DNA of 64,000 nt, taken from the NCBI RefSeq assembly GCF_903914075.1, contig NZ_CAIWNQ010000006.1, positions 124,001-188,000 on the forward strand, given 5' to 3'. A program made the translations under genes and the position numbers. The notes under the pieces were generated by a model, which saw only the letters and a program-made list of their open reading frames with translations, was not told the origin of the DNA and searched no databases. This document shows positions 3,524-10,269 of the stretch, one piece after another. This DNA comes from Ruegeria sp. THAF57. Lineage in GTDB: Bacteria; Pseudomonadota; Alphaproteobacteria; Rhodobacterales; Rhodobacteraceae. How positions within the stretch are numbered: position 1 is the stretch's first letter; each line of letters opens with the position of its first letter.

Positions 3524-4906
3524 CTATAGCACCCAGACGTCCATCGGCTCCTCGACACCGCGTACGGTCTGTTTTTCGTGCTTGGCAAAACCTTCCATCA
3601 CTTCCGGTAGGTTTTGGCCTTCTTGTTGCAATTGCACGTTTATTGCATCACTCAGAACGGCACGCGCGCCGAACTCGCGGGTCAATGCCTCCAGCTTGGC
3701 GGCTACGTTGACCGCATCGCCAATGACGGCGAACTCCAGCCTGTTTGCGCCGATGTCACCCAGAACTACCGATCCATAGTGGACACCAATGCCCACCTGA
3801 ATCTCGGGCTCACCCTGACGTTTTCGTTCGACGTTCCAACGGTCAACCACACGCACCATGTCACGGGCGCAAGCCACAGCGTTCGTAGCGTCCAGCGGGG
3901 TTGGGACCGGAGTTCCAAACGTGGCCATCAACCCGTCGCCCAGATACTTGTCCAACGTCCCATGATGCCGAAAGACTTCGGTCTCCATGCGGGCGTGAAA
4001 ACCGCGCAGAACCTCGATCACCTCATAAGGGTCGCGCCCGGCGGCGTATTTGGTAAATCCGACAATATCAATGAACAGAACCGCGATGTTTTCCTTGCGC
4101 ACCTGCTTAAGAGGCTCGTCATTCTGGCTTAACTGGTCAACGACATTTGGCGAGAAATACCGGGACAGGTTTGCACGCTCACGCTCCAGCCCGGCATTGG
4201 TCAACAGCAGTTGATTGAGACGCCGCATCGAAATGCCAAGCGTTACGGCAACCATCATAAACACGATCACCTGCTGAATCCGTTGCGACGGCATAAAGCT
4301 GTTGGGGTCAAGCAGTTCAGCCACATCCGGGTAACCTGACAAAGCCTGCGCGACACGCTCGCTTATGCCCGGAATCGGGGTCGAGACCCACCACGCAATC
4401 ACCCATCCCACCGTCCACATCAACGCAGTCCACGAACCGATTGCAACAACCGTGCGCCATGAATAGGCCAGCGTACCTGCGGCCAGAATAATGAAGAAAT
4501 ACTGAAAGTTGTCGAACCGGTACTGCATGGCCAATGGCCGCACGTCATCGCTGAACGGGTTGGGCACGATCATGCCCAAGGTCATGATCACAAGGTCCAC
4601 GAAGATCAGCAGAAGTTCGGTGCGCGATTGCCCAACCTGACCAGCCCTGCGGATCAACCAGCCGTTTGCGCAAATCAATAGCAGAATGAAATGATACCAC
4701 ATCACTTCCCAATGCGGGTTCAGGAAGATCAACAATATTCCCGTCAGACCCATGGCGATCCAACGCGCCCTGACCGCCAACTCCAGCCCTTCGCGCTTGT
4801 GCCGTTCTAACGCGGCTTCTGTGTATTTGTTGTCCAGATCGTACTGATCCGGGCGCGTCACAAAAAAACGACTGAACCGAGATTCGTTGGCTGCGGTGTC
4901 CGACAT
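3524..4906 (-). CDS. Membrane-bound class III adenylate/guanylate cyclase
   Basis: A 460-residue nucleotide cyclase. The N-terminal half has roughly five to six hydrophobic helices (about residues 48-230). A short linker, ERERANLSRYFSPNVVDQL, follows, of the type often seen before class III catalytic domains. The catalytic domain (about 270-450) has the metal-binding FIDIVGF and YLGDGLMATFG motifs and the FAVIGDAVNVAAKLE helix. Both metal aspartates are present, so it should be active, with ATP as the likely substrate. The ATG at 4906 is preceded by AAGGAG; a longer reading would add nine residues with no better site. A second, soluble cyclase lies at 8698-10269. Confidence 0.88.
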   Translation of the reverse strand: MSDTAANESRFSRFFVTRPDQYDLDNKYTEAALERHKREGLELAVRARWIAMGLTGILLIFLNPHWEVMWYHFILLLICANGWLIRRAGQVGQSRTELLLIFVDLVIMTLGMIVPNPFSDDVRPLAMQYRFDNFQYFFIILAAGTLAYSWRTVVAIGSWTALMWTVGWVIAWWVSTPIPGISERVAQALSGYPDVAELLDPNSFMPSQRIQQVIVFMMVAVTLGISMRRLNQLLLTNAGLERERANLSRYFSPNVVDQLSQNDEPLKQVRKENIAVLFIDIVGFTKYAAGRDPYEVIEVLRGFHARMETEVFRHHGTLDKYLGDGLMATFGTPVPTPLDATNAVACARDMVRVVDRWNVERKRQGEPEIQVGIGVHYGSVVLGDIGANRLEFAVIGDAVNVAAKLEALTREFGARAVLSDAINVQLQQEGQNLPEVMEGFAKHEKQTVRGVEEPMDVWVL

Positions 4907-5049: not shown

Positions 5050-6162
<1,113 letters not shown>

Positions 6163-6208
6163 TCAAGTATCCACGGCGCTTTTGCGCTCATTTGGTTGAG
6201 ACAAGGAT

Positions 6209-6247
6209 GAGTCAAAGACGATTCGCCGTCAATTTCTTTTTTGAATC
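6209..6247 (-). promoter_or_regulatory. GANTC cluster in the ccrM upstream region
   Basis: Three CcrM recognition sites, GAGTC (6209-6213), GATTC (6220-6224) and GAATC (6243-6247), lie within 39 bases upstream of ccrM. A TTGACG hexamer on the minus strand (6232-6227) could serve as a -35 element next to the middle site. Methylation feedback on ccrM is known in Caulobacter; here it is inferred from the sites only. No clear CtrA box was seen. Confidence 0.5.
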
Positions 6248-6260
6248 AGCGACTTACGAT

Positions 6261-6878
6261 TTACTCTTGATACAAGATATTGTGTACAGGTTTAAACGAA
6301 CGTCTATGGTGTGGGGTCACACCAAGATTTTGCAGCGCTTCCCTGTGTTGTTTTGACGGATAACCAGCGTTTGTCTCCCATCCATAGCCGGGATGCTGTT
6401 GCGCCAAATCCACCATCACCTGATCACGCCAGTTTTTGGCAATGATTGATGCGGCTGCAATCGACACCGAATACGCGTCACCTTTGACCACGGCCTGTGA
6501 GGGGATCGTCAGCCCGCGCGGAATCAAGTTCCCATCAATCAAAAGATAATCTGGCGGCGGGTCCAGCGCGGCCACCGCCCGCTCCATCGCAAGGTGCGAG
6601 GCACGCAAGATGTTGTGCTCGTCGATCTCAGCAACACTTGCTTCGGCTATTGCGAACTCAGCCCGCGCGCGTATTTCGACATCCAGACCGGCACGGCGCT
6701 TGGCTGTCAGCTTCTTTGAATCGTTCAGCCCCTCGGGGATGTCATCGGCGTTCAGGATCACCGCCGCAGCAACCACCGGGCCTGCCAACGGGCCACGGCC
6801 AACCTCATCCACGCCTGCGATCCGCTTATAGCCCTGCGCAATGGCGGCCTGTTCCAGTTCGTAATCAGGTTTCGTCAT
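6261..6878 (-). CDS. rnhB: Ribonuclease HII
   Basis: Removes RNA from RNA-DNA hybrids and starts repair of single ribonucleotides in DNA. 205 residues. The family signature GVDEVGRGPLAGPV near residue 21 carries the first catalytic Asp-Glu pair, YLLIDGN supplies the next acidic residue, and SIIAKNWRD follows, as expected for HII. I use the ATG at 6878 (TKPDYELEQ...), with CCAAGG just upstream; an in-frame ATG at 6917 lies against an upstream terminator hairpin and is less likely. It lies upstream of ccrM on the same strand, and the spacing of about 107 bases with regulatory sites suggests separate transcription. Confidence 0.93.
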   Translation of the reverse strand: MTKPDYELEQAAIAQGYKRIAGVDEVGRGPLAGPVVAAAVILNADDIPEGLNDSKKLTAKRRAGLDVEIRARAEFAIAEASVAEIDEHNILRASHLAMERAVAALDPPPDYLLIDGNLIPRGLTIPSQAVVKGDAYSVSIAAASIIAKNWRDQVMVDLAQQHPGYGWETNAGYPSKQHREALQNLGVTPHHRRSFKPVHNILYQE

Positions 6879-6915
6879 GCCTTGGAAAGATCGCGTTTCA
6901 AGACCGACCGCAAGC

Positions 6916-6945
6916 AAAAAGGAGGGGGCAGACTGCGCTGCCCCC
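6916..6945 (-). terminator. Rho-independent terminator of the small secreted-protein gene
   Basis: GGGGGCAG (6924-6931) pairs with CTGCCCCC (6938-6945) around a six-base loop. On the minus strand TCC and a T-run follow. It ends transcription from the gene at 6989-7456 before rnhB. Confidence 0.85.
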
Positions 6946-6988: not shown

Positions 6989-7456
6989 TTACTGGTAAAC
7001 CACGCGGTATCCTTTTTGGCGCAGGCAGGCGGGCTCATAGGCGCGCTTGACCTTTTTGCCGTTCCAGAAACCGACCTTGCACTCTGGCGGCAGGCTTTTG
7101 ACATGCTTGTAATGCTTCTTCAGGCACCCCGGCCCCAGCAGCGGTCGCTTTGCCGAATATCTGTCGAATGTGCGCAGGCATTTTTGCGGCAAGTCGTATT
7201 TAGCAACACGGCCCGGTAGCGGACGTACAGGATAATAAGAGGGGTCGGGCTTGGCCCTGTAGACAGGGGCCCGGTTTCGGCTGGCGCGCTCTTTGTCTTT
7301 CTCTTTGTTGTAATAGTGGACACCAGCGCCGATCAGCGCGATGGCGGCCAACCCTCCGAGTATATCCCTGGCATCTGCGGCCCGCGCCTGAGACACAGAA
7401 ACGCCGGTGATGGCAATTGCCGTGGCCACGATCAGAGCAATGAATTTCCGGTGCAT
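6989..7456 (-). CDS. Small secreted basic protein of unknown function
   Basis: 155 residues. I do not recognise the family. A clear signal peptide (FIALIVATAIAITGVSVSQARA, cleavage near residue 26) is followed by a short hydrophobic glycine-rich stretch (32-47), a lysine/arginine-rich linker, and a domain with four cysteines (93, 111, 126, 144) spaced as if for two disulfides. Tyrosines and lysines are frequent in the second half. The chosen ATG at 7456 places the signal peptide at the N terminus. Its own terminator lies downstream. An exported, disulfide-stabilised envelope protein is the most that can be said. Confidence 0.7.
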   Translation of the reverse strand: MHRKFIALIVATAIAITGVSVSQARAADARDILGGLAAIALIGAGVHYYNKEKDKERASRNRAPVYRAKPDPSYYPVRPLPGRVAKYDLPQKCLRTFDRYSAKRPLLGPGCLKKHYKHVKSLPPECKVGFWNGKKVKRAYEPACLRQKGYRVVYQ

Positions 7457-7633
7457 GGTATTTGTCCTTTTCCAAGTGGTGGGGCGATCCGGCGCGGTGG
7501 CCGTTTTCCTTGCCTCAACACTGGTCGCAGCCCTGAAGGACACGCAATAACGGGCCAGTGTTATCAAATATCAACGCCCCAAAACCCCTTGAGTTATTGA
7601 ATATCGCGCCGAGCCATGCGCAGGATGCAGCCT

Positions 7634-7921
7634 ATGAAACAGATCTTCTCTTCTCTGGCTGTCTGCGCCCTGATATCGGTCGGCTCTGCCGCATCCGCGG
7701 CGGAATGCTATGCCGATTACAAGGCCAAACAGGACAATCCTTTGCGCCTGCACTACGGCGTCATGCAGGTATCCGCCTGCGACAAGGGCAAAGCAAAAAA
7801 AGAGATCTCGCAACGCCTGCGCGGCTCAGGATGGACCTTGCTGAACGTGATGTCGGTGTTTGGGCCGGATGGGTTGGACAAAAGGAAGGCCAATGCCGGA
7901 AAATTCTATCTCCGTTACTGA
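7634..7921 (+). CDS. Small exported protein of unknown function
   Basis: 95 residues with a signal peptide (KQIFSSLAVCALISVGSAASA) and a short mature part with two cysteines (residues 25 and 49) that could form one disulfide. No family recognised. The ATG at 7634 has AGGA eight bases upstream and sits exactly before the signal peptide. Its last 29 bases overlap the start of the membrane winged-helix gene, so the two are probably translated together. It may be an accessory periplasmic partner of that regulator; this is inference from position. Confidence 0.65.
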   Translation: MKQIFSSLAVCALISVGSAASAAECYADYKAKQDNPLRLHYGVMQVSACDKGKAKKEISQRLRGSGWTLLNVMSVFGPDGLDKRKANAGKFYLRY

Positions 7922-8594
7922 GGCGCGGCGATCAGGGACACGGCTGGTCGGCGTCGGCATTGCGGCGATCGTTCTGATTCTGATAACCGCCGCCATTTTC
8001 CTATTCTGGACCTTGCCCGACGCCAACGCCTTCAACGCGCGCGTTGAACGGTTGTTTATCGAAAGTGACCTGACCTCGCAGGCTGAGATCCGCCTGCTGG
8101 AAATCCTCGCGCAATCGGGAACGGCCTTTGCGGATACTCTTTCCAGCTACAGGATGGTCATTTTTGTTCTGTTGGTCTTCGCCAGCACCATGCTGGTCAC
8201 GGCGCTGGTGTTTCTGGTGATGCTCGTGTTGCTGAACCGGCGGATGGCCCAGATCGAAAGGACGGGCATTCAGGTGACCTCGTTGCTGATCAGCCGCGAA
8301 GAAAACACGGTTTATCTGAACAATATGGACTTCAAATTGACACCTGCCGCGATGGAAACGCTGGCGGTTCTGGCCGAGTCCAGACTGGACGACGAAATGC
8401 TGTCCGGCGCCCAGATTGAGGCCGTCATTTCCGGAAAAGACGCCTCTGATTGCGAAGAAGCCGCTGGTGCGACGCGGATCAAGCGGCTGCGCGATGCCCT
8501 GGGCAACCAGATGGTCAGTGAGTTACTGGTCAAGAATATCGCTAAAAAAGGCTATATGCTGTCGATCGACAAAGATGTGATTCAGATGGTCTGA
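7893..8594 (+). CDS. Membrane-anchored OmpR/ToxR-type winged-helix protein
   Basis: 233 residues. Two hydrophobic helices (about 19-41 and 88-114) flank a periplasmic loop of some 45 residues. The cytoplasmic C-terminal part (about 130-227) matches the OmpR/PhoB winged-helix layout: a beta-rich lead-in, LTPAAMETLAVLAE, then ATRIKRLRDALG as recognition helix region and LVKNIAKKGYML as the wing. It would be a membrane-tethered transcription factor with DNA-binding domain after, not before, the membrane segments. A strong AAGGAAGG precedes the ATG at 7893, which overlaps the small exported protein; a cyclase gene follows about 100 bases later. The winged-helix assignment is by pattern, and no DNA target is known. 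Confidence 0.6.
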   Translation: MPENSISVTEARRSGTRLVGVGIAAIVLILITAAIFLFWTLPDANAFNARVERLFIESDLTSQAEIRLLEILAQSGTAFADTLSSYRMVIFVLLVFASTMLVTALVFLVMLVLLNRRMAQIERTGIQVTSLLISREENTVYLNNMDFKLTPAAMETLAVLAESRLDDEMLSGAQIEAVISGKDASDCEEAAGATRIKRLRDALGNQMVSELLVKNIAKKGYMLSIDKDVIQMV

Positions 8595-8697
8595 CCAAAC
8601 GGTTTGTACATTTTAGGCTTGAAAACCGTCATCTCTGCCCCTTGGAAATTCGGGAAAAATGCCCATCATTAGGGAACCCGCGCCTCGGAGGTTGATC

Positions 8698-10269
8698 ATG
8701 AACGTCCACGCCACACCGCAATCCACAGGATATCGAATTTCGGTCGAATCATTGAACGGATCGGTCGCGGTCTACCGCGGCGATGTGCTTTTGGCCAAAA
8801 GCGACAATGCCAAGGTCATGTATGAAACCCGACTGTCCCCAACAATCTACATCCCCCGCGAGGACGTATGTGTGGATCTTGGCGAAGAGACCGAGTTGCA
8901 GACCTTTTGCCCATTCAAAGGAACCGCGACCTATCACGACGTAGTTTTGAACGGTCAACGCCTGCAAAACAGTGTCTGGGCCTATGAAGAAGCTTTGCCG
9001 GAAAGCAAAGCGATTCAGGGTCATATCGGTTTCCTGTCGTCAGCCTATGACCGGATCGACCTGGGAGAAAATCGGCTTCGGGAACCCGATGATGGCAATA
9101 TCAGCGGCCCTTTGATTGACTGGCTGATGCGCGGCGCGTCCGAGCTTACGACCTCTGAAGACTTCACCAAGGCGCTGGCCGAGAAGATGCTGGAACACGG
9201 GATAGCGATTCAGCGCCTCAGCATTCTGGTCTGGTCGCTGCACCCCCTGATCGCAGGTAAACACTATATCTGGGAAAAGGGTGAGGCCGAAATCTCGACC
9301 AACGTACCGACATACGAAATTCACGATCACCCGGCCTATATCAACAGCCCGCTACGGCATGTGTCGAACGGGCTGGGTGGTGTGCGCCAGCGGCTGAATG
9401 ACGACAACCCTCATAACAGCTTTCCAATCATGGAGGATTTGCGCGCCAAGGGTGCAACCGACTATGTCGCAATGCCCCTTCCCTTTTCGGACGGTCGCAC
9501 CAATGTTCTGACGTTGACCTGCGATCATCCCGATGGCTTCACCACTGAAAATCTGGGTTTGGTGTTTGAATGCTCATCGGTCATTGCACGGTTCTACGAA
9601 GTCTTCATGCAGCGTGAAAACGCACAGGTTCTGCTAGAAACCTATGTTGGCAAGCGATCGGGCGCACGTGTTCTGGGGGGCGAAATTCGGCGTGGCGATG
9701 GTGACGAAATCGACGCGGCCATCATGTTTTGTGATCTTCGCAACTCGACCATCCTGGAAGAGCGACTTGGGCGAACGGACTATATTGTCCTGCTGAATGA
9801 CTTTTTCGACACTGTGTCGGATATTGTGCACGATAATGGCGGCGAGGTTCTGAAATTCATCGGCGACGCGGTTTTGGCCGTTTTTCCGGAAGGTGATGAT
9901 GCGATGACCGCTCGCAGCAACGCGCAGCGTACGGCCGTTGAAATCGTCGAGAAGCTGGGCGATCTGCGTCAGGAGGGCTCTGACCTGCATTGTGACTGTT
10001 CTATTGGCGTTGCCTATGGGCGTGTGACATACGGCAATGTCGGCTCACGCGAACGGCTGGACTTTACGGTTATTGGGCAGGCCGCAAACATCGCGGCGCG
10101 GTTAGGTGAATACGGCAAGACGGTGGATCACCGGATCGTCGTGTCGGCTGACATAGCACCCGCCTGCGCCGACGCTGTGCCATTGGGGGACATTCAGCTT
10201 CACAATGTTTCACAGCCTGTGCCTTCCTACGCGCTCAGAACCTCGGCGGATGTTGTACTGAATTCCTGA
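8698..10269 (+). CDS. DUF427-domain class III adenylate/guanylate cyclase
   Basis: 523 residues, no membrane segment. Residues about 15-112 match DUF427 (VAVYRGDVLLAKS, YIPREDVCVDL, TFCPFKGTATYHDV, AIQGHIGF). A GAF-like middle region spans about 150-300. The catalytic domain (about 335-515) has the metal-binding AIMFCDLRNST and FIGDAVLAVF motifs and FTVIGQAANIAARL. Both catalytic aspartates (346 and 390) are present. The ATG at 8698 has GGAG seven bases upstream; an earlier ATG at 8659 has no such site. It lies just downstream of the membrane winged-helix gene on the same strand. The DUF427 part may sense a small ligand; that is a guess. Confidence 0.82.
   Translation: MNVHATPQSTGYRISVESLNGSVAVYRGDVLLAKSDNAKVMYETRLSPTIYIPREDVCVDLGEETELQTFCPFKGTATYHDVVLNGQRLQNSVWAYEEALPESKAIQGHIGFLSSAYDRIDLGENRLREPDDGNISGPLIDWLMRGASELTTSEDFTKALAEKMLEHGIAIQRLSILVWSLHPLIAGKHYIWEKGEAEISTNVPTYEIHDHPAYINSPLRHVSNGLGGVRQRLNDDNPHNSFPIMEDLRAKGATDYVAMPLPFSDGRTNVLTLTCDHPDGFTTENLGLVFECSSVIARFYEVFMQRENAQVLLETYVGKRSGARVLGGEIRRGDGDEIDAAIMFCDLRNSTILEERLGRTDYIVLLNDFFDTVSDIVHDNGGEVLKFIGDAVLAVFPEGDDAMTARSNAQRTAVEIVEKLGDLRQEGSDLHCDCSIGVAYGRVTYGNVGSRERLDFTVIGQAANIAARLGEYGKTVDHRIVVSADIAPACADAVPLGDIQLHNVSQPVPSYALRTSADVVLNS

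Follow-up and report, generated by a model that had tools for sequence, protein, structure and literature searches.

The window analysed here, a 64,000-nucleotide stretch of the Ruegeria sp. THAF57 genome (contig NZ_CAIWNQ010000006.1, positions 124,001 to 188,000), carries three genes on the same strand that encode, from left to right, a small exported protein, a membrane protein ending in a winged helix and a soluble cyclase. We consider it reasonably likely that the first two genes form one translationally coupled regulatory pair, representing a family-wide transmembrane transcription regulator of the Rhodobacteraceae. The pair is near-core in this family and the cyclase, which contains a DUF427 domain, is accessory. 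The data are best read as an autoregulated transmembrane envelope regulator that would resemble ToxR/ToxS with an inverted topology, with cell-surface genes as its probable targets. The features of the pair and of its putative operator are as follows.

7545..7551, no strand assigned: CAATAAC half-site that would, as a full site, be centred 21 bp away from the centre of site A; it is conserved across Ruegeria and much of the family alignment
7560..7572, no strand assigned: putative operator site A, GTTATCAAATATC (12/12 consensus matches), conserved 5′ of the exported-protein gene
7593..7605, no strand assigned: putative operator site B, GTTATTGAATATC (12/12 matches), at a distance of 33 bp from site A, with the start codon 28 nt downstream
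7634..7921, + strand: small exported protein of 95 aa, putative periplasmic partner (ATG start; Sec signal peptide assigned by eye; two invariant cysteines)
7893..8594, + strand: predicted membrane-bound winged-helix regulator of 233 aa (ATG start; Pfam, alignment and hydropathy; 117/149 family genomes)
7944..8000, + strand: predicted transmembrane segment 1, residues 18–36 (hydropathy)
8157..8213, + strand: predicted transmembrane segment 2, residues 89–107 (hydropathy and charge balance)
8331..8561, + strand: C-terminal winged helix, residues 147–223 (Pfam Trans_reg_C; 32 invariant residues in 37 sequences)

The membrane regulator and its distribution

Pfam analysis of the membrane protein placed a Trans_reg_C domain (PF00486) at residues 147–223, covering profile positions 4–77 of 77 (23.4 bits, E value 6.3e-5), and the domain was detected at an E value of 0.01 or below in 36 of the 37 aligned relatives, the window protein included. 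As the score lies under the gathering threshold, we label the winged helix as divergent and OmpR-type-like rather than as a curated Trans_reg_C member. Hydropathy analysis revealed both hydrophobic segments in all 37 sequences, bearing out the two-helix membrane protein with an OmpR-like wing that had been described in the original prediction. A conserved, acidic loop of ~50 aa (residues 39–87) separates the two segments, and the residues after segment 2 are basic; together, these charges favour an inside location for both ends of the regulator and suggest that the loop is periplasmic. The alignment contains 54 invariant columns, of which 32 fall in the winged helix and 12 in the loop; the presumed recognition helix contributes TR-KRLRD to the former. 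With a predicted DNA-binding domain and membrane helices in one polypeptide, the protein fits the description of a transmembrane transcription regulator (TTR). Neither the regulator sequence nor profiles of the two pair proteins retrieved anything useful from the PDB, and searches of NCBIfam and PHROGs yielded only weak matches for the regulator.

The regulator was present in 117 of 149 Rhodobacteraceae genomes, with every match at an E value below 1e-70; a profile search (E value ≤0.01) returned no regulator in the remaining 32, the same profile recovering it elsewhere. In an order-level sample, it was found in 137 of 149 genomes, all Rhodobacteraceae, and in a class-level sample in 4 of 289, all four again Rhodobacteraceae (0/285 in other families of the Alphaproteobacteria).

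A palindromic operator candidate upstream of the pair

Alignment of the DNA upstream of the exported-protein gene revealed a 13-bp palindrome, GTTATYNRATAWC, as an island kept across the family. Counting as a site any match to at least 10 of the 12 informative positions, we detected the palindrome in 36 of 38 pair upstream regions (two or more copies in 28; reversed-pattern control, 1/38), a count that describes the palindrome rather than tests it because the consensus was drawn from the same regions. In the 28 regions with multiple copies, the last two sites are separated by 33 bp in 19, 32 bp in five, 22 bp in two and 31 and 43 bp in one each. These spacings lie near whole helical turns, as expected for proteins bound side by side on one face of the DNA. 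Site B lies so close to the start codon that an overlap with the promoter is conceivable, and such an overlap would point to repression of the pair.

We infer that the winged helix binds this palindrome. No other palindrome with at least 11 of 12 matches was found in the window besides the two at the pair; nothing was found to support the flagellar genes as targets, which the original prediction had proposed. A 155-aa exported basic protein is encoded divergently at 6989–7456 (− strand); the operator region is common to this gene and the pair, and the divergent gene is less conserved than the pair.

The exported protein and its coupling to the regulator

The two cysteines of the exported protein are invariant in 35 sequences, and an AlphaFold2 model (mean pLDDT 85.4) of the protein, whose mature length is ~72 aa, predicts a β-β-α-β-α arrangement. 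Across 40 neighbourhoods chosen to span the family, its gene lies directly 5′ of the regulator gene in 38. The two genes overlap in the window, as had been claimed at the outset; the overlap is 29 nt long, and the arrangement recurs. Where the exported-protein ORF was usable (38 loci, with starts assigned by script), the overlap is 29 nt in 30 and 23 nt in four, two loci have gaps of 13 and 25 nt, one gene is far away and one lies on the opposite strand. At locus L087, where the exported-protein gene is 4 kb away and preceded by four sites, the regulator has a perfect site of its own.

Rather than acting as a sensor partner, the exported protein could be an output of the system; it would then have a structural or protective part in the envelope, with its production linked to the regulator by way of feedback. 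Of the genes behind the operator, its own is the most constant; the protein carries a signal peptide as do other candidate targets, and at two loci (L079 and L087) its gene is not at the usual position before the regulator. The overlap in 34 of the 38 loci nevertheless suggests a fixed ratio to the regulator, which is more usual for partners than for bulk products, and we regard the output role as rather unlikely.

Candidate targets across the genome and the family

The THAF57 genome contains four exact palindromes (reversed pattern, 0). Two are those of the pair operator (7560 and 7593), one lies 27 nt before lolA (Pfam LolA, 83.9 bits) and one lies 59 nt before a gene for a 67-aa glycine-zipper lipoprotein, which was named from its sequence and not by a family search. 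In the related genome G043, sites are also present at both lolA and the glycine-zipper lipoprotein gene. Scanning all 149 genomes, operator included, returned 245 strand-hits against 48 for the control pattern in the 117 regulator-bearing genomes and 34 against 26 in the 32 genomes without a regulator. Likewise with the operator included, at least one exact site was found in 87/117 regulator-bearing genomes versus 12/32 of the others (p 2e-4).

To characterize the genes behind the sites, we used 60 sites chosen by hand among the matches listed and 11 loci from the exact-pattern scan, excluding from the counts four pair operators (L252, L297, L298 and L300) and one duplicate (L299, the same site as L192). 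In regulator-bearing genomes, 31 of 54 non-operator sites precede an ORF with a signal peptide within 12–170 nt, compared with 211/3170 random positions in the same loci and 49/385 intergenic positions before ORFs (p 2.5e-12); the 80-aa ORF limit hides two sites at 67-aa lipoproteins (L195 and L203), the inclusion of which would raise the first figure. In genomes without a regulator, 2 of 12 sites precede such an ORF. Recurrent candidate targets are DUF5333 exported proteins (four by Pfam and three more by similarity, one of the latter in G008, a genome without a regulator), OmpA/glycine-zipper lipoproteins and lolA. MipA, DUF2799, DUF3108 and a peptidoglycan-binding protein occur as single cases, and the site-bearing genes also include non-envelope genes such as meaB.

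The OmpA lipoprotein gene, present in 136/149 family genomes, allowed a comparison at one gene. The 300 nt before this gene hold a site in 16/50 regulator-bearing genomes and in 0/20 of those without a regulator (p 0.003; control pattern, 1 and 2, respectively). The former comprised the 30 top-scoring loci, which lean towards motif-bearing seeds, and 20 chosen genomes, and the latter 20 of the 22 available. Leaving out four motif-selected genomes (G003, G069, G049 and G027) reduced the count to 12/46 (p 0.013).

It is also conceivable that the palindrome belongs to another, soluble regulator and that the pair is merely one of its targets. Sites do persist in a few regulator-less genomes (e.g. 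G054, five strand-hits, control 0), but the palindrome follows the regulator from genome to genome, and both genes of the pair carry it where they lie apart (L087). CenR, a known envelope regulator of the family, was considered as the owner of the palindrome and rejected, since its published site consists of TGA-N8-TGA direct repeats (PMC9275681). We judge a soluble owner of the palindrome to be unlikely.

The DUF427 cyclase, probably a separate gene

The third gene, for which the features are given below, begins 103 nt downstream of the regulator gene.

8641..8666, + strand: putative RpoH-like promoter element of the cyclase gene, CTTGGAA-N14-CCCAT (alignment of gaps and pattern counts)
8698..10269, + strand: predicted DUF427-GAF-like-adenylate cyclase of 523 aa (ATG start preceded by GGAGG); adjacent gene, judged to lie outside the regulatory pair
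8767..9036, + strand: DUF427 (beta-tent) domain, residues 24–113 (Pfam; sequence match to 3djm)
9109..9648, + strand: GAF-like middle domain and long helix, residues 138–317 (secondary structure of the AlphaFold2 model)
9700..10236, + strand: predicted class III cyclase catalytic domain, residues 335–513 (catalytic residues; VIA-align to 1wc1)

The original prediction had joined the three genes into one signalling module whose output is cAMP and whose targets may include flagellar genes. Local gene order agrees with this at first sight. In 66 named loci with close cyclase fusions, which we used for spacing and promoter counts, the regulator lies on the same strand at most 557 nt upstream of the cyclase in 64, spanning Ruegeria, Tropicibacter, Phaeobacter, Tritonibacter, Epibacterium and Chachezhania among others; the neighbourhood is thus conserved in close relatives, as had been anticipated. 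The catalytic residues of the cyclase are also intact.

The wider distribution argues against a module. Compared with the regulator (117/149), the DUF427 cyclase occurs in just 12 of the 149 family genomes (13 genomes match at an E value ≤1e-60; G141 was excluded as it lacks the DUF427 part). Two of the 12 (G100 and G139) carry the cyclase and the regulator on different contigs, and no regulator was found in a third (G078, 83 % complete). Close named relatives of the cyclase are mostly from Ruegeria. DUF427-cyclase fusions are not unique to the THAF57 genome: they were found in 16 of 289 class-level genomes (E value ≤1e-70, with the match beginning within the DUF427 part), and distant fusions occur in other families, where the regulator was not found.

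In addition, an antisense ORF lies between the regulator and the cyclase in 10 of the 66 named loci, where the gap is 374–557 nt. These are R. pomeroyi, R. marina, R. marisrubri, R. sediminis, two further Ruegeria, Rhodobacteraceae EL53, two Tropicibacter and Falsiruegeria. The antisense gene is itself conserved (L161–L165, L167–L170 and L174), encoding an exported Cys-rich protein of 88–113 aa that ends in SPNH.

The cyclase also appears to have a promoter of its own. In the short regulator–cyclase gaps, which are mostly from Ruegeria, the alignment drifts except for a CTTGGAA block, a CCCAT block ~15 nt away and the ribosome-binding site immediately ahead of the cyclase start. The pattern CTTGG-N13-20-C(C/T)AT is present within 150 nt upstream of the cyclase in 58/66 named loci, compared with 1.0 % of 150-nt windows taken at random. 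No match was detected in the other eight named loci, most of which belong to distant genera, nor in five of the family-sample fusions L009–L019 (L014–L017 and L019), in G149 (L098) or in 14 distant fusions (L099–L112). A longer cyclase ORF starting at 8659 would begin inside the element.

RpoH promoters are given as CTTGAA-N15-16-CCTATAT and CTTGCC-N15-16-CCTATCT (Barnett et al. 2012, quoted in PMC4843759), and those of Rhodobacter sphaeroides are described by their TTG and −10 positions (PMC3441632). The −35 block and spacing of the cyclase element fit these promoters, but its −10 block differs, reading CCCAT rather than CCTAT (PMC4843759). By eye, the region upstream of groES, taken as a yardstick for RpoH, gave no clear match, leaving the sigma-factor assignment of the element uncalibrated in this genome. 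As a regulon marker, the element was rejected: CTTGRAAN{13,16}CCCAT had three matches in the THAF57 genome and the control also had three, so it defines no regulon. An inverted repeat noted by eye between the regulator and the cyclase (ACGGTTT...AAACCGT, about 8600–8627) was likewise set aside, as it is not conserved in the alignment.

The operator of the pair was found upstream of the cyclase in 3/66 loci (control, 2/66). Given the rarity of the cyclase, its own promoter-like element, the intervening antisense gene and the lack of an operator at the cyclase, we rejected the trio as one operon and regard the three-gene module as improbable. Of the envelope signalling originally proposed, a membrane regulator coupled to an exported protein, and probably related to the envelope, stands; a part in it for cAMP from the cyclase is not supported. 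The cyclase looks like a separate cytoplasmic cAMP-producing gene that has become a stable neighbour in one lineage, and it is probably stress-induced.

Domain organization of the cyclase

The assignment of the cyclase N-terminus to DUF427 was confirmed: PF04248 covers residues 24–113 with 88.5 bits (gathering score 22.1, E value 2.6e-25), the domain was matched in all 26 fusions, and 3djm is the sole DUF427 structure matched by sequence (E value 8.8e-12). DUF427 has a beta-tent fold without a zinc site (PMC4287342). Pfam Guanylate_cyc matched residues 340–485 (45.9 bits), and GAF_2 was detected in 2 of the 26 relatives (best E value 0.0074). The AlphaFold2 model (mean pLDDT 84.5, pTM 0.61) shows a beta domain for DUF427, then a GAF-like middle domain and its long helix, and finally the catalytic domain, which aligned with CyaC 1wc1 (VIA-align Z 24.8, rmsd 2.1, 182 aligned residues).

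Taking D, D, K, D, N and R as the catalytic residue set of class III adenylate cyclases, the window protein has all six (D346, K386, D390, D455, N464 and R468). D346, D390 and R468 are conserved in 26/26 fusions, N464 in 25/26 and K386 and D455 in 22/26. The protein is therefore most likely a cytoplasmic ligand-gated adenylate cyclase, as predicted from its domains and model. Four distant DUF427 cyclases (L103, L104, L111 and L112) carry R at the position of K386 and E at that of D455, and their substrate specificity has possibly changed.

In the THAF57 genome (G000), fifteen matches to the cyclase query were found, two of them covering the DUF427 part alone, and cAMP-type signalling thus looks expanded there. 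A second class III cyclase, without DUF427, lies at 3527–4876 (− strand) between a desaturase and CcrM; the same region holds such a gene in 11/40 family neighbourhoods and in most named Ruegeria loci. The CcrM DNA methyltransferase and RNase HII genes (5050–6917, − strand) are located upstream of the pair, within 7 kb, in 39/40 neighbourhoods. Downstream of the trio, on the opposite strand, are the flagellar genes DUF1217, FlbT, FlaF and flagellin, with DUF1217 in this position in 57 of the 66 named loci.

Proposed mechanism

The anatomy of the membrane protein, its coupling to the exported protein, the operator at its own gene and the envelope bias of the candidate targets are consistent with periplasmic sensing by a transmembrane regulator, aided by the exported protein. 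The winged helix would be cytoplasmic and would, while anchored in the membrane, bind the palindrome in dimeric form. The exported protein may be a disulphide-bonded periplasmic protein that touches the regulator loop and conveys the condition of the periplasm or outer membrane. Binding would then tune the pair itself as well as envelope genes, i.e. those for lolA, the glycine-zipper and OmpA lipoproteins and the DUF5333 proteins. More specifically, the pair may constitute an undescribed envelope pathway, in which an inverted ToxR-like regulator and a secreted disulphide protein reporting the lipoprotein or outer-membrane state adjust lolA and outer-membrane lipoproteins through helically phased 13-bp palindromes; we propose this tentatively, as somewhat short of an even prospect.

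A number of observations weigh against the transmembrane envelope regulator. The Trans_reg_C score (23.4 bits) is below the Pfam gathering score of 26.2, and the exported protein had no clear counterpart in the fold search (nothing in the PDB at E value ≤0.001; best VIA Z 6.1). Direct repeats are frequent binding sites of OmpR-family regulators, CenR being one example (PMC9275681). At locus L079, the exported-protein gene is inverted with an 11/12 site and no site precedes the regulator. Thirty of the 117 regulator-bearing genomes have no exact site, and G054, G045 and G008 hold exact palindromes without a detectable regulator, that of G008 lying before a DUF5333 gene. No OmpA site was found in 34 of the 50 regulator-bearing genomes, the THAF57 genome among them, suggesting that the regulon turns over quickly or that the link is weak. 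Furthermore, the fetched sites were hand-chosen from among the matches listed, the signal-peptide rule is crude and admits false cases among sites and controls alike (e.g. RecJ-like L251 and permease-like L247, judged by their first residues), and the counts treat related genomes as if they were independent.

A winged helix that no longer binds DNA and serves as a protein-interaction or scaffold domain would suit the sub-threshold Pfam score and the membrane location, but it is very improbable given that 32/54 invariant residues, TR-KRLRD included, fall in the winged helix and that a conserved palindrome tracks the regulator gene.

Rhodobacteraceae abound in the sea, and the family is widely studied. 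For it, a membrane-bound regulator that is near-universal and has both a readable operator and predicted targets offers a concrete and quickly testable system. If our reading is true, the ToxRS-style layout, in which a membrane winged helix is combined with a periplasmic partner, can also be realized with DNA binding at the opposite end of the regulator.

Comparison with known systems

We found no description of the pair, its operator or the DUF427-cyclase fusion in titles and abstract openings, which largely exclude the subscription literature and came from searches partly aimed elsewhere. The full 13-mer palindrome was absent from the papers among the matches listed.

Among class III adenylate cyclases with N-terminal sensory domains, CyaC (1wc1) and OaPAC (4yut) share the catalytic fold and residues of the window cyclase, which instead has an N-terminal DUF427 domain and a GAF-like domain.

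TTRs (PMC10269533) resemble the regulator in uniting a DNA-binding domain and membrane helices in one protein; here, the protein is conserved family-wide and comes with a recognizable operator and predicted targets. The CenKR system of R. sphaeroides (PMC9275681) is likewise an OmpR-type envelope regulator from the same family, but it has a separate histidine kinase and response regulator, and its sites are the TGA-N8-TGA direct repeats.

The pair also resembles the co-component systems ToxR/ToxS and VtrA/VtrC, which combine a membrane-bound OmpR-type winged helix with a small periplasmic partner (PMC9214523, PMC10624426). Their genes overlap in many cases and conserved disulphides occur in several, and the targets of ToxR include outer-membrane proteins (PMC10624426). 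The co-component layout comprises an N-terminal winged helix, one membrane helix, a partner gene in second position and a lipocalin-like partner (PMC9214523). The Rhodobacteraceae pair falls outside this layout, since its winged helix comes last, after two membrane segments, and its exported-protein gene comes first. In ToxRS and VtrAC, the winged helix is N-terminal with one membrane helix and the partner gene is downstream, whereas in the pair the winged helix is C-terminal after two and the exported-protein gene is upstream (38/40), with an overlap in 34/38 loci. The partner is predicted to be β-β-α-β-α, with no lipocalin match seen, and the pair is well conserved rather than fast-evolving, being near-core in a non-enteric family.

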